Assembly: GCF_032854445.1 (NCBI RefSeq)
Contig: NC_088307.1
Span: 24,627,953 to 24,691,952, forward strand
Source: Liolophura sinensis
Lineage: Eukaryota; Mollusca; Polyplacophora; Chitonida; Chitonidae
Direction: 5' to 3'
Length of the DNA stretch: 64,000 nucleotides
Under the pieces are notes generated by a model. That model did not search any database. It worked only from the letters and a program-made list of their open reading frames with translations, and was not told where the DNA came from. Position 1 is the stretch's first letter, and every line of letters starts with the position of its first letter. Made by a program: the position numbers and the translations under genes. Below are positions 25,363-51,487 of the stretch, one piece after another.

Positions 25363-25365
25363 ACA

Positions 25366-27860: not shown

Positions 27861-27913
27861 TGGTTATATTGTTGACTCACTTAGTGAGTCGGAAACTCGC
27901 AGGAGTCTTTCTT

Positions 27914-29273
27914 CAGCGACGACATGCAGTGTGATAGACGTACAGCATAGAGAGCAAGACCAGAGCAGCCACGACAGTGTGACAGAGGTACACAATAGAT
28001 AGTTAGACCAGAGCAGCGACGACAGTGTGATAGACGTACAGCATAGAGAGTAAGACCAGAGCAGCGAAACAGTGTGATAGAGGTACAGCATAGAGAGCAA
28101 GTCCAGAGCAGGGACGACAGTGTGATAGACGTACAGCATAGAGAGTAAGTCCAGAGCAGCGACGACAGTGTGATAGACGTAAAGTGTAGAGAGTAAGATC
28201 AGAGCAGCGACGACAGTGTGATAGACGTACAGCATAGAGAGTAAGACCAGAGCAGCGACGACCGTGTGATAGACGTACAACATAGAGAGTAAGACCAGAG
28301 CAGCGACGACAGTGTGATAGACGTACAACATAGAGAGTAAGACCAGAGCAGCGACGACAGTGTGATAGACGTACAATATGGAGACTAAGACCAGAGCAGC
28401 GACGACAGTGTGATAGACGTACAGCATAGAGAGTAAGACCAGAGCAGCGACGACAGTGTGATAGGCGTACAGCATAGGGACTAAGACCAGAGCAGCGACG
28501 ACAGTGTGATAGACGTACAACATAGGGACTAAGACCAGAGCAGCGACAACAGTGTGATAGACGTACAGCATAGAGAGTAAGACTAGAGCAGCGAGGACAG
28601 TGTGATAGACGTACAGCATAGAGAGTAAGACCAGAGCAGCGACGACAGTGTGATAGACGTACAATATGGAGACTAAGACCAGAGCAGCGACGACAGTGTG
28701 ATAGACGTACAGCATAGAGAGTAAGACCAGAGCAGCGACGACAGTGTGATAGGCGTACAGCATAGGGACTAAGACCAGAGCAGCGACGACAGTGTGATAG
28801 ACGTACAACATGGGGACTAAGACCAGAGCAGCGACAACAGTGTGATAGACGTACAGCATACAGAGTAAGACTAGAGCAGCGAGGACAGTGTGATAGACGT
28901 ACAGCATAGAGACTAAGACCAGAGCAGCGACGACAGTGTGATAGACGTACAGCATAGAGAGTAAGACCAGAGCAGCGACGACAGTGTGATAGACGTACAG
29001 CATAGAGAGTAAGACCAGAGCAGCGACGACAGTGTGATAGAGGTACAACATAGAGAGTAAGTCCAGAGCAGCGACGACAGTGTGATAGACATACAGCATA
29101 GAGAGTAAGACCAGACCAGCGACGACAGTGTGATAGACGTACAGCATAGAGAGTAAGACCAGAGCAGCGACGACAGTGTGATAGACGTACAGCATAGGGA
29201 CTAAGACCAGAGCAGCGACGACAGTGTGATAGACGTACAACATAGAGAGTAAAACCAGAGCAGCGACGACAGT
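27914..29273. repeat. 48-bp minisatellite with higher-order structure, about 28 units
   Basis: The unit contains AGAGCAGCGACGACAGTGTG, ATAGACGTACAGCATAGAGA and GTAAGACC and recurs every 48 bases. Variant units recur in the same order: the one with GTACAATATGGAGACTAAG appears at about 28370 and again at about 28658, 288 bases (six units) later, with the following units also matching. The array therefore has a six-unit higher-order period. Because 48 is a multiple of 3, one minus-strand frame stays open for 459 codons as a 16-residue repeat (YVYHTVVAALVLLSML). Confidence 0.95.
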
Positions 29274-31865: not shown

Positions 31866-31911
31866 ATGGGTTTCGAAGTTTGCGGACCGAATGAAGTGAT
31901 GGTAGTGTCAG
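31866..31911 (+). CDS. FLOT1: flotillin exon 1 (residues 1-16)
   Basis: Starts at ATG in AAAAATGGG and encodes [15 protein letters not shown] plus one base of Gly16. The donor is TCAG|GTAGAT, phase 1. The reading matches the flotillin N-terminus, which is why this ATG was chosen. Confidence 0.93.
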
Positions 31912-34900
31912 GTAGATACATCTTTGGTCTTTCATGCTCTGTCAAATTGGTGGAAATTCAAACCCTGCATGTGTTGATTTCCGTGTCTTTTTACCGCTAC
32001 TTCATTCTCTGTCTTCGGCGACATTATCAACAACGCTGTAGACAAGCAGCGATTGCAAATGCAGCCGCTTGGTTTTTACATGTTTTCAAAATATACGTGC
32101 AGTGCGGTGGTTTGACTCCATTAAAGCAGCTACGAATAGCTAGTGCCGTCTGTTTACTATTTTATAGCGTATGTTGACAATATAACTCACGATTTGTTGT
32201 GTTTACTTAGTTCATTTTGTCTGTGCAAGGTCTTGATCATTAACATTACATATGTAAAACAAAGTATACATGTACTTTACCATGTAACCTGGCCAGGACA
32301 AACTGTAGCTAAAATATCCACATGGACGACTTTGAATTTATTCTGAACATCATCTCCAGCTGACTAACATTTTGTAAGAGCTTTGCAGTTCCATTTCTAT
32401 TTTGTCTAAAAAACATTTACGATATGTACACTTATTAACGTGTTAACACCCGCATGTTCTGAAAGTAGGTCAAGCTTGTCAGTTAATTGTTGAAGTATGT
32501 GTGAGTATGTATGCATATCCTGTATGGAGAACTACATACTTACCGAGGTTTAGGTCATGTATATCAGCTAAGATGAATGTCACATGTTGTTGATTCAGTC
32601 ACTCGCTTTCATTTGTGTTCTTATTCTTATAGAAATCTACCTTTCACTTTTTTGTTTTCTATCCTTTTTATTAGTTTTTGTAACTTCTAACCGCCTTACA
32701 GAATGGCCTCACAAGTTCAGAACATGATATTCTGTGCAGGTTGTTCTGTTGACTGACATACATTCATTAATGATTTACTGTTATAATCAGTGGTAGTTCT
32801 CACAATATCATCTAGTGTTATTCATTTTTCACTACTTTACCATTTTTTCTTGCACCTAGTCTGCTTGTCTCGGCGTGAATATGTCCTGTCTCCAATAACA
32901 ATATCAACAAAGCTGAATTTGTACAAGAAAGTACCTTACACTTTATCCACCATGCAGATTGATTTGTTTAATTTTTTTTTTCCGTTTGTTTTTTTCCTGT
33001 TTAACACATGTTTTTGAGCAGTTTGCTGCCTGCCTCACCCTTCAACAACAGAGCNNNNNNNNNNNNNNNNNNNNNNNNNNNNNNNNNNNNNNNNNNNNNN
33101 NNNNNNNNNNNNNNNNNNNNNNNNNNNNNNNNNNNNNNNNNNNNNNNNNNNNNNNNNNNNNNNNNNNNNNNNNNNNNNNNNNNNNNNNNNNNNNNNNNNN
33201 NNNNNNNNNNNNNNNNNNNNNNNNNNNNNNNNNNNNNNNNNNNNNNNNNNNNNNTGAGCAGTTTTGCTGCCTGCCTCACCCCTCAACAACAGAGCCACTG
33301 AAATCAAATGTTAGTATTTTGTATCAATGAAATATCCCACCCAAAGTTTGTTTATCTAAGATATAGTAAGCGTTTCTTTCATGTCAAAGTGCTTTTTGAT
33401 TTCCTGACAAAAGGTGGGATACACTGTGTTCTCTAGTTTCCTTCATTCATTCCTTCATTCTACCTGACAGAAGGCATATATATGTATAATAGTAAAAAAA
33501 AAGTCTGGAGTGTTAAACATTCATATGGTTAAAATATTAATTTACGTGACTTGCCCTTTTTGACATTGCATGATGCATTGTACGTTGTAGATTTGTGTAA
33601 TGGCTTCACTGTGCAACGCGTGTCTCTGTGGCCTAGCTGTGAGTGTGCTAGTGCGACAGTGTCACCCAGGAGCCTCTCACCAAAGAGGTTGCTGTGAGTT
33701 CGAGTTCATCTCATGCTGGGTTAATCCCCGGTCATATTTGGGAAGTTCTGCCAGAAAGCTGCGGATGGTCATGGGATTTCCCCCCCTGCCAGCTTTGTCC
33801 AGTTTATTCTCACCATTATGCTGGCAGCCGATTGAACGAAAGAAATATTGTTGAGTACAGCGTGAAACACCAATCAAATAAATAAACAAATCATTATGCA
33901 ACAGCTACAACATAGATGTTATATTTATGTGAATGTACACAAAACTACCTGACTACTGGACCCATCATTCCACTTTCACAGTTCTTGAACCCTTTTATTA
34001 CAGGATGCTGCCACAAAGTACCACTTCTAGTTCCTGGAGGTCGGGTTTTCGTATGGCCAGTTATCCAAAAACTTCAAAGGTATGTCTCTCTCACGCTTAT
34101 TTCATAACCTACTCTCATTGGAATAGCACTTCCATTGTTATATGTATTTTGATGAATACACCATTGCATCTTTCAATTTCTTTGGATTTTCACTTTTTAA
34201 AAATTAAAATTTTTAATGTAAAGGACATACTGTAATTCAGTGTTATTGTTTTGGTTTTTCAAGTAATGAATGATCTGTCAAGGATGCAAACAGAAACCTA
34301 TGTCAAAATTAATATGATACTTATGCTTAAATTATGGTTTATGATTTGTTTTTATGAAACTTAACCAGAAATTCTTTTTTACAGATTTCATAATTATTAT
34401 TATAGATTTCATATACATAATGATGTTTTATTTTTGTGAAGAGTATTTGACTGGTTCATTCTAGTAGGTCTGAGTAGTTGGCTTTTGTAGTTTAGTAATG
34501 ACAACTGTGATATACATGTAGAATGCAAAATAGGTGAATAATTAAATGACCTCATCAATAAGTTGGCATAGTTGGCCAGCTGGAGCAAAACTTCAGAAAG
34601 ACTTTGATTGTTGACAGAATAATGAAAAGAGGAATATTGAAAACATATAGATGTTATATTGCTGTTTATTTGGATGAAACATCTGTATTTGGTAGTAATA
34701 TTGTACTGTATGCAACAGGATGAACCTAAACACCATGACTCTAGCTATAGAGAGTTCCAAGGTTTACACACGTCAGGGCGTGTCCATCTCGGTGACTGGC
34801 ATTGCCCAAGTGAGTCCTAGACCAATGAGAAGTTGTTTAGCATTGATTGTTCCACCCACTTTCCCCCCACTCCTTCGATGTATAGTTGTGTTTATATGGT

Positions 34901-37900
34901 TCATGGTAGTTGGCTTATTACCTGAGTGTATTTGGATCCCGGTGTTTACATTGGTTGAAATAGCAGTGTTTCTTGTTTGTTTATATTTTTCTGTTTTCAC
35001 TAAATGGCTGTTGTTTTAAGTTTTTGTGTGTCCTGTGTTATTGGTAACTGTTTGTTGGTGTGGAGAGTTAATAACAGATTCCCCATTGTTTTGTCACTTA
35101 TGTGAATATAGGTGACATGGGTACAGGGAAGAATTTAGCTTAGGCACTCCTGGCATTAAATGCTAGAGCTAAAAAATGTTCACCCATTTCTTGTGATAGG
35201 AAGCTGAATTGTTTTCATCTTGACTTTATAATAAATACATCTCCTTTCAATATTAAAAAGCACAAACATTTTCAGCAAAGTCCATGTTTTCAACACAAGA
35301 CTCTTTAGTTAATTCTGTATACAGCTGACATGTCTAATATATCTGAACATGTTTGCTGCAGATATTAAAATGTACATGTCAACGTCAGTCATGCCAGTCC
35401 TTTGATTTTCAGCATCATGCGCACCTGCACAAGGTATAGTGATATCATCATCTAATAAGTCTGGCGAACTTAGAACCGATGGTTTTATGTAATAAGTCAG
35501 GAACTGTAACAATGCAAAACAGTACTCCTATGTGACTATAATAGTTTTTACACTTTGTTGTCGGACCAATCAGCTCTTGCCAGACTTTACCAACAGAGAC
35601 TGCCCCACATTCTTTGGTGGTGGTGTTTACTTCCGATTGGTGGTCGACAAAGTCTGGCAAAAGCCGAGTGTTCGACAAGCTGGCCAACAAAAAGGCGATG
35701 TGTCAACATGACCGTCCAGTGCGAAAGACTTATAAAATGGATCCACCTTTGAGGAGTTTTGTACTTGTGCACATGAATCAAACTGAGGGGGACAGAATGG
35801 TACGTTGGTAAAATACGGCTTCAGGGAGTAGGGAGAGGCTTGGGCTTATCCTCTATAGAGAATAATCTATGAGTAAGCCCATTAGAGCTAGCGGGGCACA
35901 AGCTTTTAATACACAGACAGAGGTTTCACTGTTGTGGTGATGTTTTCTCTTTCAGAATAAACCTGAACGTTATGAACTTGTTTATTGAGAGTACTTTAGT
36001 TTACACCTCTCTGGGTGTTCCCATCTCAGTCAATGGCATTGCTCAGGTGAGGCTTCACAGGGGATGAGGTGCTATAGTTGGTTCTGCTTCCCTGACATGG
36101 GACTCATTTATAATAAAGGGTGAATATACCTGGGAAAATGGTACGCTTCTGTTCATTTCTAACGAAGGGTGTTTGTACCTGGCTGTGAAAATTACCGATG
36201 TACACAAGTTTCTAATTTGGTGACTCTTTGCAGCAATTCTGAATATTTACAAATAATAATGATAAAATTATAAAAGTATTGATAAAATAGTAAGTAATAA
36301 AATGCCTAAGCTCTACACTCAGTTTGTTCATGAAATTAGACCCTGTGGCTTGACTGTACTTTACCACAGAGGCACTGCTTGCTTAACTCAGATCAAGCAT
36401 ACCTTTACTCTTGAAGTCCAGTATGTCCAGAGCATTTCCTCTCAACTCTAATCATGACAAATTCTACACACAAGTCTTGATGCATATCCCATCTAGATTC
36501 AGCTGGAAGCATGTGGTCATGACTGCCCTCGATAGGGAGAAGCGAACCTAAACCTTAACTGGAGAAGTACATTTTTATCCTCCGTCCTCCATCATTAGAA
36601 ATTTACAATCCCAGAATGCACCTTAGGGTACATGGGAATTCAAGGCCCGTGTATAATGACAGGATGTCATACTTTCAGAAGTCCTGTTTCGATAATGCCC
36701 TGTACTGGAAGGTTTTTTATACAAGTTTTGGTGGAAGGACTCAGATATTGCTTGCTCTAAAGGGAGATAATTCTGAACAGCAGCACCATCCACTTCTTCA
36801 GCATGTTGAAGGTAATGGCTTTCCAGTTTTAGAGGGGACTTGGCATTATATTGGTGTTTTGTTTGCGACGCAAAGTTAAAACTGTTGAAACTTGTGGATT
36901 GCTGACCTCCCATATGCCTGCTCTAATTACCCGTGTAGATGCTTTTTTACTTATAGTATTTTTTCATCATCTTCATGAGATATTTACATGTACATTTTCG
37001 TCTTTAGTAAGACTGCTGCCATTCTCGTAGATGGTATATCTTCACTCATTTTGGGGACATGGTGTGTCGACTATCATGATTTTCGAGATCATACTGCTAG
37101 CTTTCAAGGTCTTTTCATTTTTAATTTTTTATTACCCATACCCATTTTAATACCCATATTGTTAGAGTTGATTACTTTTAGGGTTATCAGTAATTTATTC
37201 TGCTTTAGCGTTCCATTGCTATATGAATGTAGAGCTGTTGTAAAGGGCTCATTGCGGACTGTCCATTTACCGACCATCCATGTCTGTAGATACCCAACAT
37301 GTGTGTCGGTATTAGTGTTTTGCTGTCAACATTCTTAACACATTTACGTGTATTTTCATTGCAGTTTAGGCCTCCGTCACAACTTTCGTACGCATGTAGT
37401 ATTTTCACTCATTTCAGGATGCACTCATTTTCAAGGTCAAAGTACAGTTTTCAAGGTCATACCATTTTTATTTTATTCATAATCCATTATTCATTTCTAG
37501 GTACATACTATACAGTATATGCCTGGTGTAGTTTTAAGAATTTGTAAATTCTACCTGATAAAATTCTGATTGATTGACTGACTGCTGTATCCATCCATTG
37601 ACAGAGTTCACCTCAGTGTTATGACCCTTCACATAAGCAGCTCCCACGTCTACACTCAAATGGGCGTACAGGTGTCTGTGACAGGCATTGCGCAGGTGGG
37701 TGGCCAAATGATCCCCACCCCAGGGCACACTCATTCCTTCTCACTCTCTGAATGTATAGTTTATTTATTTATTTATTTTATTTATTTTTTTAAATTTTAT
37801 TCTGTATTTGATGTAGATTTTCTCTATGATTTACACTTGTGGCCAGGTTTTATGACTTTTGTTGCTCTATTGACCTTAGAAAGTGTTTTAGGTTTGTTTA

Positions 37901-40900
37901 GAAGATAGTTCTTGTACCATGGTATCCTATTGGGAAAATTGAAATTTCTGCAATGGTAAATAAGTGATTTTTCATGACCTTTATTTGATGCTTATTATGT
38001 AATTTTTGGAGGCAAATTTTAGGCCAAGTACAATATTTTTTTTGCTGTTGCAGTGAAAAGCTGCTGTGTAATTTACAATTACATAATTGTCTTGTAAGTT
38101 TGCAACTTACAAGGAACAAATTGAATTTAAGCAAGAAGTAAATAATATTGAAATATTGTTTAGACTTTGGTAATGTATACCAAGCTACAATGTTGTAGTA
38201 GCAAATTTTAGTGCAAGTACTGGTAAATTTACCCATGACCCATTGGCTGGATGAAGTGAGAGTACTAAAATTTGTTGTTGCACAGTTACTAAAACTATAT
38301 TTTGCCACCAACACTATGATGATGTGATTTCTCATATTCAGCATGTAGGACAGAATGGTTTCAAGTCCTTGTTTCCACTCCGTAACAAAACATTTGATTT
38401 GTTTTTATTTCTCTCTGTCTGATTTCTTCTTCTTGTTTTTCAACTAGACATGCAGTGTTTTTGCTATTCCTAATTTTGTATTCAGTTAATTTTATTGACA
38501 TCATCACCCTGTATTCCTTCATGTTAACATTGTCTATCTGATTCGTCTTTGTGAAACAAGTGCAGAAACATGCATTCTCACAGGTAGGATATTGGAAAAG
38601 GTAGAATTTTGAATGTAAACAAGTTGACATCAAGAATTTATAATAGTTGAATGAACGAGATCTTTTGGCCACCCATTTTGTGATGTTTAAACTACTGGTC
38701 ATGTAGATGTGTTTGGAAGCAAGGTTTATTACTGCGTTATAGGTTGCCTAGCATTGTACATGTACACATGTTATTGAAGCTTCAGAACTAACAGTTGTAC
38801 ATGCCATTTTAGATATACAGTAGGTGCATCAGACACATGGTTAATAAGTATGATTAAAGTAAAGAGAAGATGAATTTTGCTCATTACAGATGGTTTTCCA
38901 TCTTTTCCTTTTGGCATTCAAATTGTATGGCAGGCATTTTCTGTGGGTGTCAGACTGATAGCTAAACTCATTGCATGGTTTTGTCTGTGTTTATAGGGTG
39001 ACACTACATGTTGCGTAGGTCAAGTGTCTTAGAGAACCAAAGGGGGTGTGAACTTGTAAAGCGACATTGTGCTGTAAAGTGAGATTTGCGCATTATAGGA
39101 TAGCCTTGTGTTCACGTCAGGCCTATTGCATTGAATAATTCCTGCTGAGAAGCAGGATTTTGCATAATGCGAGCGCTGTATGCCCAGAGTTGTCAGATGA
39201 CTTGGTGTAAGCTGTTTAATGGTGGGATGGCACTAGTGTGGAGCAGGGCCTCGAGAACGTCAGAAATGGATTGCAATGCAACATCTGCAGTGTTGCAATA
39301 TGTCAGTTTCTACTGTGTTTAATGTGATGTCATCATGCTGCCAGGCATTTGACAGGTGCCCATTAGCGGATCTGTATAAAGCCTGCTGAAATAAACTGGA
39401 AGGGCAGACCTAGCCGTCCTGAAAGCCCCCTGTCTACATGTATGTCATGATTCTGAATGTTATGGGAAGGTTTATGTTTGATTCCATTGTGAGTACTTGT
39501 GTTATCTATTAGGTGCTATTTAAGTTAGAACAGTAGTACCAGAATTGCTATATATTTGTCTGTGTACAACATGAAGGGATTTGTTTGCTGGTACATGTAT
39601 GTTTGTGTCAAATGTAGATTGTGCGGGGAACTGTTTGCAAGGCCTTGACAAATTGTCTTGTGTAAGAAACAGGCCCAGGGATCACAAAGCCATCTTAGGC
39701 TTAAGTCAAAATCAAAAATTATTTCTTATGGAAAATGTTGAAATATTGCCTAATAGCTTAAATTGTGGGTAAGTTATTGTGCAGCAAATTTCAGTTAAAA
39801 CAAGGGAAAGGAACACACGTGTACCAGACTTAATGATTGAAACTTTGACTTAGTCTTAAGATCCTAGGTCCAGAATGGCAGTCTAGGCTTAATCAAGTGA
39901 TTTACGTGATGGAGTTTGTAGCTTTACACTGCAAGGTACAGAAGAGGTTAAGGAACTCTTTCTCATTTGTATTCCTTCATGAAAGGCAAACTCGCAATAA
40001 CAAATGTTGTGTGCTTTAGTACCTATTTATCCCAGTTTTTCATGTAAAATTGTTACTCAGTATCATAAAATCCCCTGACACATTCGTACTGGCACACTTT
40101 CCTTTAATGACACACACTTCTCCAAAACGTTTATTGCACGGACTCCGGAAGCCCGTGGCTCCACCTCTCTAATCATCAGGGGCGATAACTTTTTACTACT
40201 AAAGTGTGAGAGACAAAATAACAATCTCCCTTCTTTTTTAGGCCAAACTGAAATTACTCTTTCAAGGAAGTCATACAATGAAAGAATCTTATTTATAAAA
40301 CAGTTCTGTATTGTCTCTCAAAATTCAAAAAAATTTTTTTTGTTCAGAAAGTGTCAGGTCATTCCTCTTAAAGCCATCACCAGTCAATCACATTTGGAAA
40401 AAGCACCGCTTTCAATAAAAAAGACCTTTCCCCTTAAAAAAAAAATTTTTTTTCAAAGGAAACTGATGCAGCTGTTTGTGTACAGAATCATCTAAGTATT
40501 CTACCTTCACTCAAAGTTCTCAGCAAAGAGAATGGAGAATAATAAAGAGTTCACCTTGTGTACCCTCATCAGGAAGGTTGCTAAGTGATGCATCACTGAA
40601 AACAAGCCTCTCAACACCTTTGCTGGGCGCCTAGATTTGGAAACAACTCTGACACCACCTCAGATTTTAATCTACGAATTACTTTGTTTAATTCTAGAAT
40701 GATCTGACTGGTTGCTTTCTTCTGAGCTGAGGCTAACATGGGCACATCAAACGACATGTCAGGTCTGCTCTGTCGCGGTATCCACAGGAGCTGTCCCACT
40801 TTGGAGCAATGGGCTTGCAACTCATTGTTGGTCAGGAAAGATTCTTTCTGATCAGAACGTGTTTTCTGCACCGCTGAGAGCTTAATACCATCAGTGTATT

Positions 40901-43900
40901 GCTTGCCATAGTTCCTGTGTGGAGTAACATAAACAGCCTCTTGTTTTGAATTAAATCCGAGTGTTCCAACTTACTTTCAGTACCAGTGAAAAGGCCTGAT
41001 TTTATGTCGCAAACAGTTAATTCACTACAGGCTGTGAGAGCCAACTGTCTTTTTTTTAATCACTAAATTTGCATCATAACACAGATTAAACGCCAAAACA
41101 GCATCAGGAAGAGTCATTTCATATTTCCATGCCTTGGACTATCTTTTCTCAAATTCAATTATATAGTCTGACATCTTGATTTCTTCCATTTTCCAATCAG
41201 AGTCAGATGTTTCATAAGCACTATCTCTGGCTTGTTTCTCACATATATACCATCGAATTTCTGGAACAAATTGTCCATACCCATCTTTGTATTTAGTTCG
41301 TCGGTTGACAGATCAATGGCTGCCTCTCTGGATTTTCCAATTAGGGACAGTGACATTGCCAATGCCTGCTTCTCCATCGTGAGATCTGTGATTCGTCGCC
41401 ATACCTCTAATTCGTTTTTTCCACAACTCATAAGACTGTTCCTCAAACGTTGGTGTGTTATTATAGCTTCCTGCCATCTTAACCTAACCACTATTTGCTA
41501 CCAGTGTTACTCATTATCATAAAAGCCCACAACACATTCGTACTGGCACACTTTCCTTTAAGTGTATTGCATGGACTCCGGAAGCCCATGGCGCCACCTC
41601 TCCTGTCTTGAGGGGCGATAACTTTTTACTACTAAAGCCTGAGAGACCATTAACAGAATTAGTATAGTGAAAATTACTTACACCATAATGTCACAACTGA
41701 TCAATGATGATGTTGTGTAGTTAGATGTACATTTCCAGTAATCCTCGCATATATGCATCTTTATTTACCCTACTTACAAAGAAAATTGAATTTTGCTGAA
41801 AAAATATTACAGTAATTTTCTTCCAGGAACAAGTTCAAAGTCATCTTCATTTGAAGACAAAGGTTTGGAGATTCCTGTACGAGGATCATATACATGTATA
41901 CATCATTGGCCAATGTGAAGTTCTTGGTTTTTGGCTGCTGTTTGGCTGCAGATGGCCTTTTGCCAGACCCAAAGGCTGATAGTAATAGAACTTACAGTAG
42001 ATACTGCGATAAGCCTAATGGTATGCTGCAGTTCTAGTCAGAAGTCGCTCCATTTAGAATGATGAAGGGTTTCCATACAAGGTTGCCAATGCTAAACTAC
42101 CCTCGTTATCTTCTCGTTTCACCCTTGTTCAAAGCATGTATAGTCCTCTCCTCTTCCGCAGTTAGTTCTTTTACCTGGTAATCCCATTTGAACAGTATTT
42201 TGGTGGATAAATTCTTTCACTATGGAAACTCTAAGTTATTCAAAATGGAGTAACTGTGACTAGATCTGCAGCACGCCTTTCAGGCTTTTCACATTATGTG
42301 GTTAAGCTTGTGTCAGAAAATTCAGACTAACAGTATGAGTCTTCCTTTTTCATTCACAGAATTTCACTTAATACTCTGACCTTGCAAATAGAAAGCAATA
42401 ATGTTTACACCCAGCTTGGAGTTCCAATTTCTGTGACCGGGATAGCACAGGTGAGAAGTCGTTTCCAGAGAATGTGGTGACATTAGCAGGAAGGTCATTA
42501 TCTGGGTCAACTGAAGGTCAAGGCTACCTGGTTTTCAGCACCGTGTTACATTCACTTCCATCTTGTCTTCAATTCCCGTTTCCTGTATACTCTATGTTAA
42601 GGGTCTTTTCTTGTGAGGACCGCTTTTCATCATCATGTTTGTCATATCAGTATCAATGTCACATAGGTTATATGTGCTGTGGTTGAGAAAAATGATAGGA
42701 GGTACTAATGTAGTATTATGAAGTTTGATCGAAGTATGCCACTGGTGAAGGAGATTGCATACGTGTAAGACTAACAATGAATGGTTTATTGGGCCGAGAA
42801 AAAGATCACATCTACAAGTATTCGCATCCACTGCATGCCTTTTCACGAACACAACATGCCTTTTCACGAACACAATCATTTTTGTACAATCACATGTGGA
42901 CCAAGATTAAGTTACATTCCTGTACATGTAATAAGCCTGACCCATAATTACATCATTGCCTCTTTACGACGGTGCATTCTGGGAAAACCTGGGTGTGAAA
43001 TGACCATTTTTGTTTGTTTTCTGGGTTGTGCTGTTTTGGGATCTGCTTTAATTCCAGTGTTAACATGTCACATGTTAACATTTGGGTACCAAATTATGTA
43101 CTGACAGTTCAAATGTCTCCTGGCTCCCCTAACATCGTTGTTACAAGAAATGCCTTGCGACAAACAAATCAATGATGTAATTAGGTTTTAGGGCTAGAGT
43201 CTACTCTATTCAGCCAACACACTCGTTTGCATATGTGTTGTAATCAGACATCAGCCTATCAACTTGTCCCATGCTGACGGTTATGAACCATGAGAAAATG
43301 TTTTAAGAAACCTTCTGATCTAGTTTACCACTGTATTAGAAGCCTTATTTAGAGGACGTATATAGTGCCGTAAATATTTGTGGCCAGTTCTGTTATTGGC
43401 GTCATTCAGATAGTGAACATTTGTTGGTTAACCCAAATGCAGCAGAGAAACCAGACACTCGCTTTGCTATTGTACGTAAGCTGCGAGCTGTTTTATTATA
43501 TGTATCCTCAGTATTTCTTCGGCTTAAAACTGTGCTTTGTGAGGACATTTTAGGTTTGATCATCTCTACATCTACCTGTGGCCCCTGCCTTCGATGCTAT
43601 ATGTTATGGCTTTACCTCACTAAATGTTCAGAGCTGGTTCGCTTGTTTTCAGAATTTTTTCACATTCGTCTCTGCCTCCAGAGCAAAGAAGCCTATTGAA
43701 AATGAGCCATATTGGTTATTGGTTACATTTGTTATGATATTTTTGTGAAGTCAGCACTGTATTTTAAGAAATATGTCAAGAGTGTGAAATAAAACCATAC
43801 TGTGTATTTCGATCCAGGTCTGATGGCATTGCCTTTAAATCACTCAGTTTGTGATTTAAATGGGTGCAATCTTAGGGTTCCGAAACTCTAGTTGTGTATG

Positions 43901-46900
43901 AAACAGGCTGTTTTATATCAAAGTTGGCTTTTTCTGTGTTACCTCTGCTTAGAGGACCTGATACAGTGTACTTCAGGAAAAGGAGGGGATATTTATGGGT
44001 TTCGTCAAGGATGCAAATTAGTGAGTAATATGAAAATATGCCTGCATGACCAGGAGTTCTCAACAGGGGGTGACTGATCAATGTAGGTGGATGTTGCATG
44101 CACCATGGTGCCTGAAGTTTGGTGCTCAAAGCAGGGGTGACCGATCAGTGTCTGTGAATCTCAAAAACATCTGTTTAAATGTTTTGGCATTATTTCTGTC
44201 CACAGACTGTCCCTTAATGTACTGACTTTACAAATAGACAGCAGTAACGTTTATACACAGCTGGGTGTCCCTATTTCTGTCACAGGTATCGCTCAGGTGA
44301 GAAATGTCGCCCTGACCTTCAAGGTTTTAAAGTATAGGTCAAGGTCATGGGATGTAGGTCAAGGTCACTGCCAGGATCAAGGTCGCTCTGCCCTGATCAT
44401 AGGCATGATTGTCACTATGACAGTCTGCAATAAGTAGAGGTATAAGAGAGAGTATTATTACTTATTTATCTATTCACAGAGGTTGTATAAAGATCTTACA
44501 TGGAACATCACTCAATAGCATAGCAAATTATAAACCGTCAGTAAGTCACAAACAACAAAATAACGACAGCAAGGTATTTTCAGATTTACAGGAAATATAA
44601 ATCTGTACTTAGGTTTGTTCTGCAGCGTTGTGAGGAAAGAAAAAGCTGTGAAGCAGTGAGTCTGGTAGAGTAATCCGCATACATGCTCTGAGTGAGGTAG
44701 AAACAGTGTATACACACCTGCATTCATACTCGTTATTTTTCTCTCTTATGATTCTCTCACCCATACACCTAACTGCCGTCATATAAGTGAAAAGTACTTG
44801 AGTATGGTATTAAACACCAATCAGTTCACCAGTCACCAATCATATGATTTCTTCTCTGTATCAACAGAAATGTTGTCATTTTTTTTTCTTTTTGTATCAG
44901 TTTGTTTATTTTTTAATTTTTAAATAAGCTTACACTTGCAAATTACACCAGCATTTTCACGTTAACCAATACATAATCTTCCACCAATACTCACACCTTT
45001 ACACAAATCTAACTCTGGGTGGATGTTATTTTGTTATTAATTAATGGGGTTCTGTGTTGTGTGTGACCATTCTACTTCTTTACTTTCTTTACATACATGT
45101 GTATTTTTTGTGATACACCTGTACATATTTAATTTGCATGAAGCTTCATTTCAAAGTTGGCGTAGTGACAGTGGCCTTGGATTTGACCTTTACCTGCTTT
45201 GTGGACAATCTTTAATTTTGGTTTAAAAAAGGACAGCTACCTACTTGTATGTTAATTGTAAATAATAAAGATTTGTCAGATCTCTATTTCTTTTATTTAA
45301 TGAATAACTGTAAATCATAATGTATACAAGATGTTGTTTCTGTAGAATCGTCAATGAACTTTAAAACTAATTCTTGATGGGAGTTTATCTTTTTTTTTGT
45401 TGTTTTTAACATTTCATTCTGTCGAATGTGTTGAAGTAATTCTTGAGTATTGAATTTCATATGTTTTCCCCCCGTTGTATGCTTTATATGTGGACGTAAG
45501 AATGCAGTATCTCAACTATCGAAAACTGATTTAGGTAAAAATTCAAGGACAGAGCAATGACATGCTGGCAGCTGCTTGTCAGCAATTTCTGGGGAAATCT
45601 GAGAATGAAATCCGTAAGATTGCTCAGGAGACACTGGAAGGCCATCAGAGAGCAATTATGGGAAACATGACGGTCGAGGTAAGTGGCACAGCCTGATGGC
45701 TTAATCCCTAAACCGTCAGTTTTAGGCCACACAAAGCTAAAATGGTTTTTTTTTTTAGGAGAATAAACCATTTTTTCTTGCATTTTCCTTGTTTCTTTCA
45801 TCCAAATATGTTGTCTGTCAGACACTTGACACACCTTTTCTATATCTTTACATGGGCACGTTTAATAATTTTGGCAGGTTTAAGGAACAACTCGGGTCGA
45901 GTTAAAAGGTTTCGTGTTTGTTTATTCTGTTGGTTATTTATGATTTTTACTTTATTTTTCCTGATAAGAAAATAATCAGATTCTGCAAAAAAATCCTCAA
46001 GTGGCTCAATAATGTGTTACATGAAAAAAAAGATGAACTTTACGTTAAACAATATATTTTGACCTTGCATTTTCCGTCCACAGGAGATCTACAAGGACAG
46101 GAAGAAGTTTTCCAAGGCCGTGTTTGAAGTGGCTTCCTCAGATCTGGTTAACATGGGCATCTGTGTGGTGAGCTACACACTGAAAGACATCCGCGATGAA
46201 GAGGTCAGTAGTCTCCCTTTTTTATATTGAAACGCTTGGGGAATCCGTTGCTAAAAGTTCACCATGCCGTTTTCAATGAGTTACGGAAATAACATTTTGC
46301 AGGACCATGTGTTAACGAATTATGTAGTCCTCATGAAGGATATGTCAGAAAATATGTGTTTTTCTAGTTTAGGGGGCCTCCGTGGCTCAGTTGGTTAGCA
46401 CGCTAGCGCAGTGTAATGACCCAGGAGCTTCTCACCAATGCGGTCACTGTGAGTTCAAGTCCAGCTCATGCTGGCTTCCTCTCCAGCCATACGTGGGAAG
46501 GTCTGTCAGCAATGCGCGGGTGGTCAAGGCTTTTCCCTAGTCTCTTCCCGGTTTCCTCCCACCATAATGCTGGCTGCCGTCATATAAGTGAAATATTCTT
46601 GAGTACGGCGTAAAACACCCATCAAATAAATAAATAAATAAATTTTCTAGTTTAAAAAAACATAATGCCACATTGATTGGGCAGTTAAAACATGAAGACA
46701 GAAAGGACAAAAGGATGTGGCTAAGTTGTTTATACGCAAGGACTCACAAGGTGCGTGTTTAGTTTCAGTCCTGGACTTAATATTTATACCTGTACATTCC
46801 CCGTCTTTCCCTGATCGTGTGACTTTAGTGTTGACAAGTAGTTGACAACACTCATGTGGCCTAAAATTCGTAGCAGACCACTTTTTCACCAATCAAGTGT

Positions 46901-49900
46901 GTAGTCTATTGGGAAAATTCACCAGTATCTTGTCAAAGATGGTTTTTATTTTCCCTGAGCGTTCCATTCATCCACACCAATAAAAATGAACAGAGTGGAA
47001 AATTTGTATGACGTTAAACAACATTCATAATAAATTATAAAAGGGAGGACAGATTTTTTGTGTAACAATTGGGTTCTGTCCTGTTCTTCAACAGGTAATT
47101 TTAAAAATTCCCCTGCTTTTGTTGTCCTTGGGGGCCCTTGGTGGATTTCGAGTAGTCATGCATGAAGTTTGCTTGAGGCGACTTATTATTTGCCAACATG
47201 ACCAGCATACACATGCCACACTTGGGAGATTTCTTTATTAACTCGCCAAAGGTTGACATTTTATACTGTTTAGAAATGTAAGTGATGAAAGACCGTGCTT
47301 ATCTAAATGACAAATGCTGTTATTAAACGCTGTTCTATTTGTTTTATCCAGGGCTACCTGAGAGCCCTGGGTATGGCCCGTACTGCCCAGGTAAAGAGAG
47401 ATGCTCGCATTGGCGAAGCTGAGGCCAGAAGAGACGCTGGCATCAAGGTAGGTCTGTCTGTGGCCTTCGCGCAGAGACAAAGATTTCTCCTGTCTACAAG
47501 GAATACATATACAGCTGTAATACATGATATTGTGATCTGGGAAGTTCTGCCAGCAAGCTGTTGGTCGTGGGTTTCCCTCGGGCTCTGCCCGGTTTCCTCC
47601 CACCATAATGCTGGCTGCCGTCGTATAAGTGAAATATTATTGAGGACGGTGTAAAACACCAATCAGATAGATAAATAAATGAATACATCATGGTAATTGG
47701 TTTCAATAAGTGATTTTGCTGCGAGATGCAGTTTAGTAAGTTTAATCTTTCAGTCTGTAAATGAAATTTTTCACATGCCACCTTGTAATTTGCCCGATTA
47801 TTGGACATGAACATTTTGTTAAATGTTGCAGCTAGTCAGTACTGCAAATTTGAGGTTATTTCTGGATATCTTTGAATATAAAAGAAAAGAATTGTGTTTT
47901 GTTTACCTGTAAATGTTCACAGAAAACGGCATCAACTCTTGGGATGTCCTCATTTGTTCTTTACCTGTGGAGCAGACTATAATTGTCTTTGTTTTCTTTT
48001 TTTTCATTAGGAAGCCCAGGCTGAGGAACAGAGAATGGCTGCTCGATACGCCAACGACATTGAAATTGCCAAGGCCCAGAGAGATTTCGAACTGAAGAAG
48101 GCTGTCTATGATATGGAGGTGCAGACAAAGAAAGCCATGTCAGACCTGGCATATGAGCTTCAGGTAGATTTCGCCGAGATCGAGCTTGAATTTCCCCTGA
48201 TGAAAACAGAGTAAAGTTAGGCATAGAGGTTGATTTATCCATTCCCTTCATTGAGGGCTATAATATAGTAAGAATGGACGGATTGGTATGGTAAACATTG
48301 CAGCATCTAATCTGTCCTGGCACAGTCTACACACAAGTAAACCTGCTGCTGTTGTATGTTTAAGGCGGCCAAGACGAAACAGCGCATCAAAGAGGAAGAG
48401 ATGCAGATCAAAGTAGTGGAGAGAACTCAACAGATACAGGTGCAGGAACAAGAAATCGTGCGACGTGAGCGCGAACTCGACTCCAACATCCGCAAACCCG
48501 CCGAGGCAGAAAAGTTCCGTCTGGAGAAACTTGCAGAGGCTAACAGGTGCTGGGAAGCTTTGTAACAAGAGAAAGTTTTAAGTGTGCAAAAATATGATGG
48601 TTTACCAATAGAAAGTTTTCGTACAAATTTCTTTCATTCACAGTTTTAAAAGAACTCTTAAAAAGCATCATTTTTAGTTTCATTTTCAGTATTTCTTCAT
48701 GCACTTTGATGTGACCATTAAAGTTTGAGATCAGAACCTTTAATGTTTTTCTAGATATGAATGACATCTCCCATTGTAGTGGTTTTCAAAGCACAAAATT
48801 ATTTTTCATGAGTGAACCAAATGAAGTAGCGATTGAAATTGTGAACTTCTGAAATGTGCTTAAATCTAAAAGAAATGTTCTTCAGGATTCAACATGGTTT
48901 GTTCTATTTTCAGAACCCGAATTATTTTGGAAGCTGAAGCCTCAGCTGAATCTATCAAGGTAAGGCCTGTCTTGTTCTAGTGTTATGTCTGCTACTTGAA
49001 CTGTTTACAACGAATTAAAAGTTCTCAGGTTATACACCAATTGATTGGTTCGTCCTTCACTCCTATCCTCTGACTCGTATTGGCCATGGGTTTCCCTAGG
49101 GCTCTGCCAACTTTCCTCCATAATGCTGGCTGCAGTCGTACAAGTGGAAATGTATGGCATAAAGCACCAATCGAATTCTGATGTCCGGAGACTCATGCTC
49201 TGGTGATTTTTATGACTTCAGGTGAAGGGTGACGCTGAAGCATATGCCGTAGAAGCCAAGGCCAAAGCTGAGGCAGAACAGATGGCCAAGAAAGCTGATG
49301 CCTGGAAGGATTACCAAGATGCTGCTATGGTGGACATGGTCCTCGAATCTCTGCCCAAGGTCTGTACTTTATACATTTGATTTGTTTGCCAGCCTCAGGT
49401 TGTGGACCCTCTTTTCAGCTCATGTCTCATTGGCTTTGCTGAATTGGGTGATGCAGCCGTTGGCTAATAAGATCAAAGAAGCTTGAAATCAGTTGTTAGT
49501 TTTGCTTCAGCTTTAAGCTGTGAAGGGCTGTTTACTTCATCCAGAAATCTTTCTCACTGCTGTCGTATGAGTGAAATACTCGAGTTCAGTCTTTTCTGCT
49601 GTAATGGGAATTTCTGAGACAATAATTTACCTTCCATTTTGAGGGAAATTAAACGGTCCTTTCTATGGAAGTACCCTTTCAATGCAATTTATGCACATTT
49701 TTGTGTGATTTTTGAAACAAAACTACATTGGTTGGATTGGCCAGTTTCAGGGCATCACGAAAAGTATAACTTTATCAGTCAACACAGAATAATGCCTTCA
49801 GAATATGCTTGAATAAACACCTTGCCAACAAAGGAAATGTTGAATCACTGTAAACTGTAAGAATTTTGGAATTTTTTTTTGCAGTAAGACTTTGTGACGT

Positions 49901-51487
49901 TAATAAATAGGCTAGTATCATTGTCATTAAATACCAATTACAGAGGTGTGGAAGACCAACTGAACTAATCTTCTCTGTTTATCTACGTCTGTGAGATTCT
50001 TTGATGGCCGTTAAATTGATCTTGCAGCACTCCAGTTTCCCCGACTGGTTATTTTTCGATAAGGGATTTAAGAAGCAGTCCAAACGAATTAAATTAAATT
50101 GGCTCTAACCGTTTACTATGTTTTTGTATACCTCAGATTGCGGCTGAGATTTCTGCACCACTGTCCAGTTGTAAGAAGGTGACGATGGTGTCCAGCGGCA
50201 AGGGTGATGTGGGTGCCCTCAAACTGACTGGTGAGGTAATGGCCATCATGGAGAAGCTCCCCAAAGTGGTGGAAGGTCTGACCGGCGTGGACATTCACAG
50301 GGTAGGTTGACATTACTAACAGCAGTCGTAATATGTGTGTGGAACACGGTCAGCAAACAGTTAGGCCAGGTATTGCTAGCAACATTTTGACCCATTTCAG
50401 CCTGCAGTGTTTGGGCCTGTTGCAGCCTGCAACTTTTGGGCCTTTTGCAGCCTGCAACATTTTGGCCCATTCCATCCAGCAGCATTTGGGCCAGTTGTAG
50501 GTAGGGGCGCAAGGAAAATGAGCAATGACTTTTTTTGTGGATTCCCCTACTCTCACTGTTCGTTTTTGTGACAATAAGCAATTGTCAGTGTTCATGTGGC
50601 TGTTTTGCACATTCTAACGTTCATTGATGACCACTTGTCTTCACCCCTGTGTTTTGTGCAGCTGCACGTGATTTTTCCCAGGCACACAATTTTATTCCAC
50701 CCATAAAGCTCGTGTAGGTGGAACATTCTTCAGTGAAACTACAATGAAATAAATAAATAGGTGAGGCCTAATTTGGCTTAAGTATTATTCTTGCTCTTTC
50801 CCTGGAGGCCTTCATGGCCTGGGGGTCAGTGTGCTAAAGACCCAGGAGACTCTTACCAATGCGATCTTTGTTAGTTCAAGTCCAGCTCCTGCTGGCTTCT
50901 TCTCCAGTCGACTGGCCCCGATAACACAGTTGATAGAGCGTCCGTTTTGGGAGCGGTAGATCCAGGGTCAATCCTGGGTCGAGTCACACCTGAGACCTTA
51001 AAAGAGGAAGTTGCAACTTCCTCGCTTGGCGTTCAGCATGAAGGGAATAGTGCGACGACTGTTTGACCCCTATCAGTATAATAGCTTGAGAGGGGCATCT
51101 TATTTGCCTTCAGTAAGGCGTCACAGTGAAGCAGCACTAGATAAAAGAGCTGTGGAAATCCATCCTGCAACAAGGAGGCACATTATATGCACTCTAAGGA
51201 TTCCTTCGTCGTCATATGACTGAAAAATTGTTAAGTATGACGTTAAACCTCAAGCACTCACTCCTCTCCCGTCTTGTGGAAATGTATGCCAGCTACCTGC
51301 AGATGGTCGTGGGTTTCCTCTGGACTCTTCCCGTTTTCCTCCAATCATAATGTTGGCCGGTGTCGTATAAGTGAAATATTCTTGAGTACGGCATAAAACA
51401 TCACTCAGTCAATGCATAAATAACAGATCAAATCAATAAATGCTAATTATGTTGCAGGCCTTGAAGGTGGGGCCTAAGGTGAAGTAA
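31866..51487 (+). CDS. FLOT1: flotillin-1 (SPFH membrane-microdomain scaffold), complete split gene
   Basis: Twelve coding positions join in frame to 428 codons, against 427 for human flotillin-1. Residues 1-160 are the SPFH/PHB domain ([11 protein letters not shown] start, [41 protein letters not shown] across a junction). Residues about 170-360 are Ala/Glu-rich coiled coil with the flotillin repeats ([10 protein letters not shown]). The C-terminus has [21 protein letters not shown] and LTGVDI. VKIQGQ and [12 protein letters not shown] favour flotillin-1 over flotillin-2. Flotillins coat the inner face of plasma and endosomal membranes as hetero-oligomers that act in endocytosis and signalling. 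Exons: 31866-31911, 34004-34079, one of five alternatives, 45535-45678, 46084-46203, 47352-47447, 48011-48163, 48365-48546, 48914-48959, 49222-49359, 50137-50301, 51458-51487. The oddity is the five versions of position 3. Confidence 0.96.
33015..33054. repeat. 40-bp direct repeat, left flank of gap
   Basis: TGAGCAGTTTGCTGCCTGCC followed by a TCACCC and CAACAACAGAGC block recurs right after the gap at 33255-33295 with two single-base differences. Confidence 0.9.
33055..33254. other. assembly gap, 200 N
   Basis: Exactly 200 unknown bases in flotillin intron 1, a round number typical of a placeholder. The 40-bp flanking repeat suggests a collapsed tandem repeat or an unmerged overlap of two haplotypes. 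Confidence 0.98.
33622..33892 (+). mobile_element. SINE family A, old copy
   Basis: All regions from head (GTGGCCTAGCTGTGAGTGTG) through B-box equivalent GTTCGAGTTC to tail (CACCAATCAAATAAATAAAC) are present, with many substitutions. In intron 1. Confidence 0.85.
34004..34079 (+). CDS. FLOT1: flotillin exon 2 (residues 16-41)
   Basis: Acceptor TTACAG|GAT and donor CAAAG|GTATGT. It enters in phase 1 and leaves in phase 2, holding the first two bases (AG) of Arg41. It encodes [20 protein letters not shown] and QKLQ. Cys17-Cys18 are candidate S-acylation sites. The position of the vertebrate flotillin-1 acylated Cys34 is Val35 here. Confidence 0.93.
34719..34809 (+). CDS. FLOT1: flotillin alternative exon 3a (residues 41-71)
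   Basis: 91 bp; acceptor GCAACAG|G, donor CAA|GTGAGT. Its one leading base completes Arg41, and it ends in phase 0. It starts [18 protein letters not shown] and ends [11 protein letters not shown]. Compared with the canonical version 3d it has A at exon position 10, K at 15, RQ at 19-20 and S at 23. Intact frame and splice sites imply constraint. Confidence 0.9.
35560..35670. other. inverted repeat in the intron between 3a and 3b
   Basis: TGCCAGACTTT at about 35579-35589 is perfectly complementary in inverted order to AAAGTCTGGCA at about 35650-35660. A second inverted pair, ACCAATC and GATTGGT, lies nearby, but its order does not allow both stems to nest. The transcript could form an 11-bp stem here. 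Confidence 0.5.
35956..36046 (+). CDS. FLOT1: flotillin alternative exon 3b (residues 41-71)
   Basis: 91 bp; acceptor CTCTTTCAG|A, donor CAG|GTGAGG, same phases as 3a. It starts [18 protein letters not shown] and ends [12 protein letters not shown] at exon position 27 replaces the Thr found in all other copies, and N at 8 and F at 10 are unique. No stop or frameshift. Confidence 0.9.
37605..37695 (+). CDS. FLOT1: flotillin alternative exon 3c (residues 41-71)
   Basis: 91 bp; acceptor CATTGACAG|A, donor CAG|GTGGGT. It starts [18 protein letters not shown] and ends [11 protein letters not shown]. It is one of the two most diverged copies (HIS at exon positions 10-12 and QV at 23-24), yet keeps L4, L9, I11, S13, VYT, G21 and the GIAQ end. 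Confidence 0.88.
37743..39665. other. intron 3c-3d, first part, no feature recognised
   Basis: AT-rich intron with a TTTA-rich tract at 37758-37800. I looked for a further copy of the VYT..GIAQ exon and did not find one. Confidence 0.4.
39670..39885. repeat. dispersed repeat E with imperfect inverted ends
   Basis: It starts GATCACAAAGCCATCTTAGG and TTAAGTCAAAATC and ends ACTTTGACTTAGTCTTAAGA and TCCTAGG. The ends are roughly inverted (CTTAAGTCAAA against TTTGACTTAGTCTTAAG). A partial copy lies at 17633-17735. It may be a MITE. Confidence 0.4.
40611..40871 (-). pseudogene. pol (reverse transcriptase/RNase H boundary) remnant
   Basis: The short block [20 protein letters not shown] matches the region at the end of Copia reverse transcriptase (S-x-x-G-x-L-x-W-x-x-x-x-x-RPD-hydrophobic). 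Downstream frames are broken before RNase H is complete. Confidence 0.7.
41159..41491 (-). pseudogene. gag-like remnant of the Copia element
   Basis: The frame after the primer-binding site resembles gag of Copia/GalEa-type elements of marine invertebrates, with a W-x-x-E-x-x-W-x-x-I/V-TDL block followed by [20 protein letters not shown] and [13 protein letters not shown]. It is interrupted by frameshifts near both ends, so no full product is possible. Confidence 0.65.
42360..42450 (+). CDS. FLOT1: flotillin alternative exon 3d (canonical-like)
   Basis: 91 bp; acceptor CATTCACAG|A, donor CAG|GTGAGA. It starts [18 protein letters not shown] and ends [11 protein letters not shown]. The RISLNTLTL start is the form found in vertebrate flotillin-1, so this is the best candidate for the ancestral version. 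Confidence 0.93.
44206..44296 (+). CDS. FLOT1: flotillin alternative exon 3e (residues 41-71)
   Basis: 91 bp; acceptor TGTCCACAG|A, donor CAG|GTGAGA. It starts [18 protein letters not shown] and ends [11 protein letters not shown]. It is closest to 3d, differing at five residues (exon positions 2, 6, 12, 14 and one backbone-neutral neighbour at most), so 3d and 3e probably arose by the latest duplication. Confidence 0.92.
44755..44832 (+). mobile_element. SINE family A tail fragment
   Basis: Only the 3' end is kept (CTGCCGTCATATAAGTGAAA, TACTTGAGTATGG, TTAAACACCAATCA), in the intron between 3e and exon 4. Confidence 0.65.
45535..45678 (+). CDS. FLOT1: flotillin exon 4 (residues 72-119)
   Basis: 144 bp, phase 0 to 0; acceptor TGATTTAG|GTA, donor GAG|GTAAGT. 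It encodes [20 protein letters not shown] and [21 protein letters not shown]-domain sequence shared with flotillin-1. Its first codon is GTA; joined directly to exon 2 it would read AGG then TAA, a stop. Confidence 0.95.
46084..46203 (+). CDS. FLOT1: flotillin exon 5 (residues 120-159)
   Basis: 120 bp, phase 0 to 0; acceptor TCCACAG|GAG, donor GAG|GTCAGT. It encodes [20 protein letters not shown] and the end of the SPFH domain ([16 protein letters not shown]). Confidence 0.95.
46372..46643 (+). mobile_element. SINE family A, full length
   Basis: A box at 46383-46394 (TGGCTCAGTTGG), B box GTTCAAGTCC at 46453-46462, body, and (AAAT)n tail. Target-site duplication TTTCTAGTTTA at 46361-46371 and 46644-46654. 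In flotillin intron 5, sense orientation. Confidence 0.96.
47352..47447 (+). CDS. FLOT1: flotillin exon 6 (residues 160-191)
   Basis: 96 bp, phase 0; acceptor TTATCCAG|GGC, donor AAG|GTAGGT. It encodes [20 protein letters not shown] and [12 protein letters not shown], the start of the flotillin coiled-coil region. Confidence 0.95.
47540..47690 (+). mobile_element. SINE family A, truncated
   Basis: Body and tail only (GGAAGTTCTGCCAGCAAGC, GGTCGTGGGTTTCC, ATAATGCTGGCTGCCGTCG, CACCAATCAGATAGATAAAT). In intron 6. Confidence 0.85.
48011..48163 (+). CDS. FLOT1: flotillin exon 7 (residues 192-242)
   Basis: 153 bp, phase 0; acceptor TTCATTAG|GAA, donor CAG|GTAGAT. Coiled-coil segment with [20 protein letters not shown] and DLAYELQ. 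Confidence 0.95.
48365..48546 (+). CDS. FLOT1: flotillin exon 8 (residues 243-303)
   Basis: 182 bp, entering in phase 0 and leaving in phase 2 (AG of an Arg codon). The acceptor GTTTAAG|GCG has a short pyrimidine tract. It encodes [35 protein letters not shown] and [18 protein letters not shown]. Confidence 0.94.
48914..48959 (+). CDS. FLOT1: flotillin exon 9 (residues 303-318)
   Basis: 46 bp; acceptor TTTTCAG|A, donor AAG|GTAAGG. It encodes [15 protein letters not shown] after completing the Arg codon. This EA-rich segment is typical of flotillins. Confidence 0.94.
49075..49177 (+). mobile_element. SINE family A, old fragment
   Basis: Recognisable but eroded body and tail (GGCCATGGGTTTCCCTAGGG, CATAATGCTGGCTGCAGTCG, AAAGCACCAATCGAATTC). 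In intron 9. Confidence 0.7.
49222..49359 (+). CDS. FLOT1: flotillin exon 10 (residues 319-364)
   Basis: 138 bp, phase 0; acceptor GACTTCAG|GTG, donor AAG|GTCTGT. It holds the EA repeats ([20 protein letters not shown]) and [13 protein letters not shown]. Confidence 0.95.
49655..49862 (-). repeat. dispersed repeat D, copy 4 (inverted)
   Basis: Reverse-complement match to 3157-3375: TTGGATTGGCCAGTTTCAGG, CTTTATCAGTCAACACAGAA, GCTTGAATAAACACCTTG. In flotillin intron 10. Confidence 0.65.
50137..50301 (+). CDS. FLOT1: flotillin exon 11 (residues 365-419)
   Basis: 165 bp, phase 0; acceptor ACCTCAG|ATT, donor AGG|GTAGGT. It encodes [34 protein letters not shown] and [10 protein letters not shown], the conserved flotillin C-terminal block. 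Confidence 0.95.
50375..50495. repeat. short minisatellite in intron 11, about 4 units
   Basis: Units of about 28-30 bases around GCAGCCTGCAACATTTTGGC and TTTGGGCCTGTTGCAGCC are repeated imperfectly. Confidence 0.7.
50795..51410 (+). mobile_element. SINE family A split by a later SINE
   Basis: Left part about 50800-50909 (head with GGAGGCCTTCATGGCC, B box GTTCAAGTCC). Right part about 51265-51410 (GGAAATGTATGCCAGCTACC through ATAAGTGAAATATTCTTGAG to the tail). The two parts are continuous in the family consensus. In flotillin intron 11. Confidence 0.85.
50910..51264 (+). mobile_element. tRNA-derived SINE family B, full length
   Basis: Head with A-box-like ACACAGTTGATAGAGCG and B-box-like GGGTCGAGTC, body with AGGAAGTTGCAACTTCCTCG, end CAAGCACTCACTC. 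A 9-bp near-perfect target duplication (TCTCCAGTC at 50901-50909, TCTCCCGTC at 51265-51273) dates it after the family A element it interrupts. Confidence 0.88.
51458..51487 (+). CDS. FLOT1: flotillin exon 12, C-terminus and stop
   Basis: Acceptor TATGTTGCAG|GCC. It encodes ALKVGPKVK and ends at TAA 51485-51487. The short basic end is the variable tail of flotillins. Confidence 0.88.
   Translation, partial: ALKVGPKVK

Follow-up and report, generated by a model that had tools for sequence, protein, structure and literature searches.

The locus examined here raises the question of why a single flotillin-1 gene should hold five different versions of one small internal exon. It lies in the chiton Liolophura sinensis (RefSeq assembly GCF_032854445.1, contig NC_088307.1, positions 24,627,953 to 24,691,952, forward strand), within a stretch of 64,000 nucleotides that we analyzed as a whole (hereafter the window, from whose first base all coordinates are counted unless a contig is named). 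The genome has eight matches to the haemocyanin domain PF14830, a molluscan family, against 0 of 14 control genomes, which supports its origin from a mollusc. The third coding exon of the gene is present in five tandem copies (c1 to c5), which, judging by the sequence, very probably make up a mutually exclusive exon cluster with five members. All five are 91 bp long, are bordered by AG on the upstream side and GT on the downstream side, have equal phases, and contain neither stops nor indels. The first base of each finishes an Arg codon opened by exon 2 (AGG in c1, AGA in c2 to c5), and the final base closes a Gln codon. Their donors (gtgagt, gtgagg, gtgggt, gtgaga, and gtgaga for c1 to c5) fit the consensus at 8 of 9 positions throughout, compared with 6 to 8 of 9 in nine constitutive donors. 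A nucleotide profile built from the copies and run over the window with filters off recovered these five at E values of 1e-21 or better, the next match having an E value of 3.2. A preliminary description of this DNA, made from its letters alone, had already placed five 91-bp exons with AG/GT borders, common phases, and an open frame here, and its coordinates are correct to the base.

We placed 11 coding exon positions of the chiton flotillin-1 gene on the + strand between 31866 and 50310, with exon 3 in five versions, as follows.

31866..31911, + strand: exon 1, with the start codon; placed by open reading frame (ORF) and donor, and matching the N-terminus of the solved flotillin-1
34004..34079, + strand: exon 2, constitutive; exit phase 2 (..LQ-AG), without a second copy in the window
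34719..34809, + strand: alternative exon 3, c1; donor at 8/9 of the consensus, acceptor pyrimidine fraction 0.53, the lowest of the five
35956..36046, + strand: alternative exon 3, c2; AG/GT borders and an open frame
37605..37695, + strand: alternative exon 3, c3; the most private residues, and three His
42360..42450, + strand: alternative exon 3, c4; nearest to the solved flotillin-1 (23/30 residues)
44206..44296, + strand: alternative exon 3, c5; nearest to c4 (26/30 residues)
45535..45678, + strand: exon 4, constitutive; starts with GTAAAA
46084..46203, + strand: exon 5, placed by ORF and splice sites and by alignment to the solved flotillin-1
47352..47447, + strand: exon 6, placed in the same way as exon 5
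48011..48163, + strand: exon 7, placed likewise
48365..48546, + strand: exon 8, placed likewise
48914..48959, + strand: exon 9, placed likewise
49222..49359, + strand: exon 10, placed likewise
50137..50310, + strand: exon 11, the last coding exon found; TGA at 50308-50310 on read-through

The identity of the gene follows from its product: the 421-amino-acid (aa) protein assembled with c4 and including exon 11 aligns with the solved flotillin-1 (Protein Data Bank codes 9bq2 and 9l3g) over residues 3 to 420 with a score of 594 bits (with flotillin-2 it reaches 366 bits) and shows an SPFH/Band 7 domain followed by the flotillin helices across its full length. The Pfam Band_7 model scores 65 to 73 bits with all five N-terminal isoforms (cutoff, 23.6). 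This alignment and these domain scores bear out the earlier assignment of the copies to the SPFH segment of flotillin-1. At the 3' end, a donor-like GTAGGT after 50301 may mark a further splice to another coding exon. A scaffold gap of 200 N separates exons 1 and 2 at 33055-33254; translations show similar sequence on either flank of it, which may be a repeat or the two sides of an overlap that was left unmerged.

The frame determines which combinations of the copies can be productive. We enumerated the 32 inclusion patterns between 34079 and 45535 with the order of the copies kept. The five single-copy patterns all remain open through exon 10 and, with exon 11 added, to the final stop. Each of the 27 other patterns (none, pairs, triples, quadruples, and all five) hits an early stop, and this includes the five four-copy patterns, although their length would restore the frame. 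Skipping of every copy produces a stop at the junction of exon 2 and exon 4, because exon 4 begins with GTAAAA. Thus, inclusion of exactly one copy is the only productive state among the ordered patterns. The locus shows neighboring internal exons of equal length, phase, and frame, with mutual similarity, whose combined inclusion or skipping is nonproductive, the last being a frequent, not an obligatory, feature of mutually exclusive clusters. The view taken in the preliminary description, that one version is chosen per transcript, is strongly supported for productive transcripts by the frame arithmetic and, as described below, by the purifying selection that the copies as a set have long been under. 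Beyond this, we infer that each copy would be used, that the choice among them would be regulated, and that it would have a function.

The copies are old. Across the ten pairs they share 52 to 69 of 91 bases and 17 to 26 of 30 residues (57 to 87%), with proportions of nonsynonymous differences (pN) of 0.08 to 0.31 against proportions of synonymous differences (pS) of 0.67 to 0.99. The synonymous distance (dS) was computable in three pairs (1.65, 2.24, and 2.92) and saturated in the other seven. Third codon positions carry the largest share of the differences in all ten pairs; in the closest pair, c4 and c5, they account for 18 of 22. A codon model gave an omega of 0.041 to 0.043 over three topologies, each of which kept c4 and c5 together, and omega = 1 was rejected (likelihood ratio test statistic, 73.9; p = 8e-18); branch lengths ran high, as expected of saturation. 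Searches with blastn among the different cluster introns returned no match at an E value of 0.01, which is as expected of old duplications. The antiquity of the array thus rests on introns without detectable similarity and synonymous sites saturated or nearly so, even between c4 and c5, next to peptides that are conserved. The equal lengths, the lack of stops, the invariant residues, the pattern at third positions, and the rejection of omega = 1 also go beyond what chance would give.

We then simulated free drift (1,500 runs per point), asking how often it would still leave a copy with no stop and equally few new private residues. The probability was 0.035 for c1 at 0.2 substitutions per site, 0.011 for c2 at 0.3 (0.079 at 0.2), 0.024 for c3 at 0.3, 0.035 for c4 at 0.1, and 0.021 for c5 at 0.15. 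Since these values fall so low, it is likely that no copy has been free of constraint for most of its existence, but c2 or c3 may have been lost fairly recently.

The segment that is exchanged can be placed on the known structure. The preliminary description had the isoforms differ at residues 41 to 71; residue 41 drops out of this range, being the split Arg that is identical in all five, and the difference at residues 42 to 71 stands. These chiton residues correspond to residues 41 to 70 of the solved flotillin-1. One review gives residue 43 as the border between SPFH1 and SPFH2 (PMC11775717), so the exon covers the start of SPFH2, adjoining the SPFH1 part, which enters the membrane leaflet (PMC11260169). 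Half of the segment (15 of 30 positions) is invariant among the copies. The variable positions include 49 (A/F/H/Q/Q), 51 (E/E/S/E/D), 54 (K/L/H/N/N), 58, 59, and 62. Position 51, a Lys in flotillin-1, is a reported SUMO site (PMC11775717), and this Lys is absent from all five copies. The histidines of c3 fall at columns 42, 49, and 54, the first two being without a match in any of eight comparison sequences; a three-histidine c3 could be a pH-responsive form. A swap would replace roughly 30 residues at the start of SPFH2, where it adjoins the SPFH1 part embedded in the membrane at the rim of the cage, and with half of the residues kept and the others changed, it would tune rim packing or the partner and lipid contacts of the flotillin-1/2 cage.

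As to how one copy might be chosen, the spliceosome would join exon 2 to one copy and then that copy to exon 4, and products with none or several copies, having early stops, would be lost by nonsense-mediated decay. The choice itself would be set by trans-acting factors or by competing signals in the long introns. The inter-copy introns measure 1,146 to 4,664 bases and are all GT-AG, with donors that look U2-like by eye; given these lengths and borders, exclusion by steric crowding or by mixed intron classes does not apply. Control by a distant branch point, a mechanism of exon exclusion described previously (PMC7969005), did not fit, the AG-free zones before the five copies spanning only 18 to 64 bases. 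We also made a crude scan for docking/selector pairing in a single genome, which cannot reveal covariation, taking 800 bases from one end of every intron between copies (four introns): shuffles matched the observed score in 92 of 100 cases for an upstream dock and in 18 of 100 for a downstream dock. RNA structures too subtle for such a simple pairing scan would remain an alternative to protein factors in choosing the copy.

The intron between c3 and c4 (37696-42359, 4.7 kb) exceeds the five other introns of the cluster in length. It contains a direct repeat of 164 bases (77%), an inverted repeat of 78 bases, and a minus-strand ORF of 110 aa (41159-41491), and this content is perhaps a mobile-element insertion. 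That ORF is one of five other ORFs of the window for which Pfam returned nothing at an E value of 0.1.

Several observations weigh against a cluster in which all five copies are in regulated use, the outcome of the pairing scan being one of them. Tests of constraint on single branches gave p values of 0.07 to 0.70 and are uninformative, since branch-specific omega is not identifiable when synonymous sites are saturated; what that model shows is thus purifying selection on the set rather than on each single copy. The polypyrimidine tract of c1 is weak (0.53), that of the constitutive exon 4 being weaker still (0.47). Residues absent from all eight comparison sequences make up 7 of 30 in c3 and 5 of 30 in c2, which is compatible with relaxed constraint. 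As for directed change of the segment, 12 of the 15 variable positions also vary among the solved flotillin-1 and flotillin-2, the chiton FLOT2-like protein, and a bacterial relative, only positions 41, 42, and 47 varying among the copies alone in this comparison set; much of the variation thus falls at sites where the family is tolerant, and any claim of directed change is the weaker for it.

One alternative reading is that just a subset is in use (c4 and/or c5, for instance, and perhaps c1) and that the rest are decaying relics, which would overlap with a mutually exclusive cluster if at least two were in use. In its favor, c2 and c3, which have the most private residues, are also the least like the solved flotillin-1 (18/30 and 16/30), and the acceptor tract of c1 is weak. 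Against it, no copy has a stop or an indel, every donor still fits the consensus at 8/9, and free drift of 0.1 to 0.3 substitutions per site, depending on the copy, would leave the observed state with a probability of 0.01 to 0.035, compared with synonymous distances of at least 1.65 where computable. We regard such partial use as unlikely.

A second possibility is that exclusion is not regulated at all: splicing would be stochastic with wrong products degraded, or the array would mainly lower expression through unproductive splicing. Because the copy length of 91 bases does not divide by three, decay would by itself suffice to remove wrong products, and the simple pairing scan gave no RNA-structure signal. 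The human atlas of mutually exclusive exons offers precedent in both directions, since among clusters with a length that does not divide by three, 22% had reads joining two copies, but in a set of orthologous genes 18 of 20 did (PMC5740500); from these figures, clusters with joined copies and clusters without them both occur. That the chiton protein versions have been kept apart under purifying selection suggests that the protein products matter, and we consider unregulated splicing quite improbable.

It is very improbable that the array is an assembly artefact in which copies from several flotillin genes or haplotypes were merged. The gap between exons 1 and 2 and the HiFi depth of 14x in the likely source assembly (PMC11068029) would leave room for one, whereas there is no N from 33255 to the end of the window, the copies differ at 22 to 39 of 91 bases, far beyond haplotype difference, and the other exons are single in the window. 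Genome searches with a 119-residue flotillin query, with c3 alone, and with c2 alone recovered the same five copies, all on one contig (C13), where the longer query also found the neighboring exons 1, 2, and 4; a second flotillin-1 locus was not found in these searches, in which the genome sequence may mask stretches as N. Their one weaker match, which c2 alone did not reach, lies on contig C10 and is a FLOT2-like gene. Independent cassette exons used combinatorially, which ordinary splice sites on each copy would permit, are just as improbable given that all 27 patterns other than a single copy, the frame-restoring four-copy ones included, stop early.

Where searched, the duplication is confined to this exon. 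The ten other flotillin-1 coding exons have no clear second copy in the window: tblastn gave weak matches for exons 2, 4, and 6 (E values of 0.034 to 0.96, the best in an 18-base tandem array), and nhmmer gave weak matches for exon 4 at E values of 0.15 and 0.9, the latter inside the c4-c5 intron. In the FLOT2-like gene (C10:29028386-29028628), the corresponding exon is single within about 20 kb (next nhmmer E value, 4.7); its entry intron has the same place and phase as that of the duplicated FLOT1 exon, and there is no intron after the Gln. Since the FLOT2-like counterpart has no such exit intron, it is the flotillin-1 gene that shows a separate small exon of 91 bases here.

Among more distant relatives, 61 pattern matches in genome contigs yielded one confirmed flotillin relative, from an Anaerolineae metagenome-assembled genome (L011 1767-3293), which matches the chiton protein at 57% identity in its best segment and has a hydrophobic stretch at its N-terminus, and seven stretches that matched the pattern in viral contigs yielded none. 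The fold of the bacterial relative, predicted without an alignment as a means of placing the variable residues, was discarded for its low predicted local distance difference test score (mean, 46; 31 to 44 in the ten-residue blocks of the segment). Elsewhere in the window there are long tandem arrays at 700-1695, 8366-9900, 10396-11164, 24689-25365, 27927-29273, and 57789-58320, with units of 18, 80, 21/82, 76, 48, and 22 to 88 bases, respectively. Some are open over long stretches (459 aa at 27864-29243, minus strand); they look like minisatellites rather than genes.

Compared with known systems, the chiton array has the general makeup of a mutually exclusive cluster. The human atlas defines these by same frame, similar length, similarity, and reads, finds that 60% have lengths not divisible by three, and includes clusters of 3 to 10 members (PMC5740500). 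The chiton exons resemble them in being neighboring and internal, in the same frame, and of similar length and sequence; they differ in belonging to flotillin-1 of a mollusc and in being a candidate cluster known from DNA. Closer to hand, clusters in muscle myosin heavy chain genes were predicted from genomes, including those of the molluscs scallop, oyster, and Lottia (PMC3912159). There too one element is exchanged within a conserved fold, although myosin has several clusters along the gene and flotillin-1, which encodes a membrane scaffold, has a single one with five members.

In Dscam and 14-3-3zeta, docking/selector splicing puts a single array member into each transcript, as would be the case in the flotillin-1 cluster; in the latter, the simple scan found no such pairing. 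The coq-2 gene presents a two-exon swap. In that housekeeping gene, mutually exclusive exons alter function (PMC7434440); coq-2 is an enzyme with fewer versions than the flotillin-1 cluster. In the solved cage, the flotillin-1 chains (9bq2) have a single version of residues 41 to 70, whereas the chiton gene has five. Text searches of the open-access literature gave no earlier report of mutually exclusive exons in flotillin; mutually exclusive clusters are already known, also in other genes of molluscs, and within that literature the flotillin case appears to be new.

To our knowledge, the purpose of the flotillin cage is not settled. Flotillin-1 and flotillin-2 form a closed cage on membranes (PMC11260169), and through the cluster described here one gene would make five slightly different flotillin-1 scaffolds. 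In its fullest form, which we put forward tentatively from the sequence, all five versions would be expressed according to tissue or state and would occupy the cage at its 22 flotillin-1 positions; splicing would then set the mechanical, lipid, or partner specificity of the rim, and the array would be ancient and common to chitons, perhaps also to other molluscs. Five natural versions of a 30-residue element, long kept apart, mark variable versus fixed positions and provide a ready-made series of cages for comparison. If the cluster is confirmed, a housekeeping membrane scaffold joins the set of genes for which molluscs gain diversity through tandem exons.

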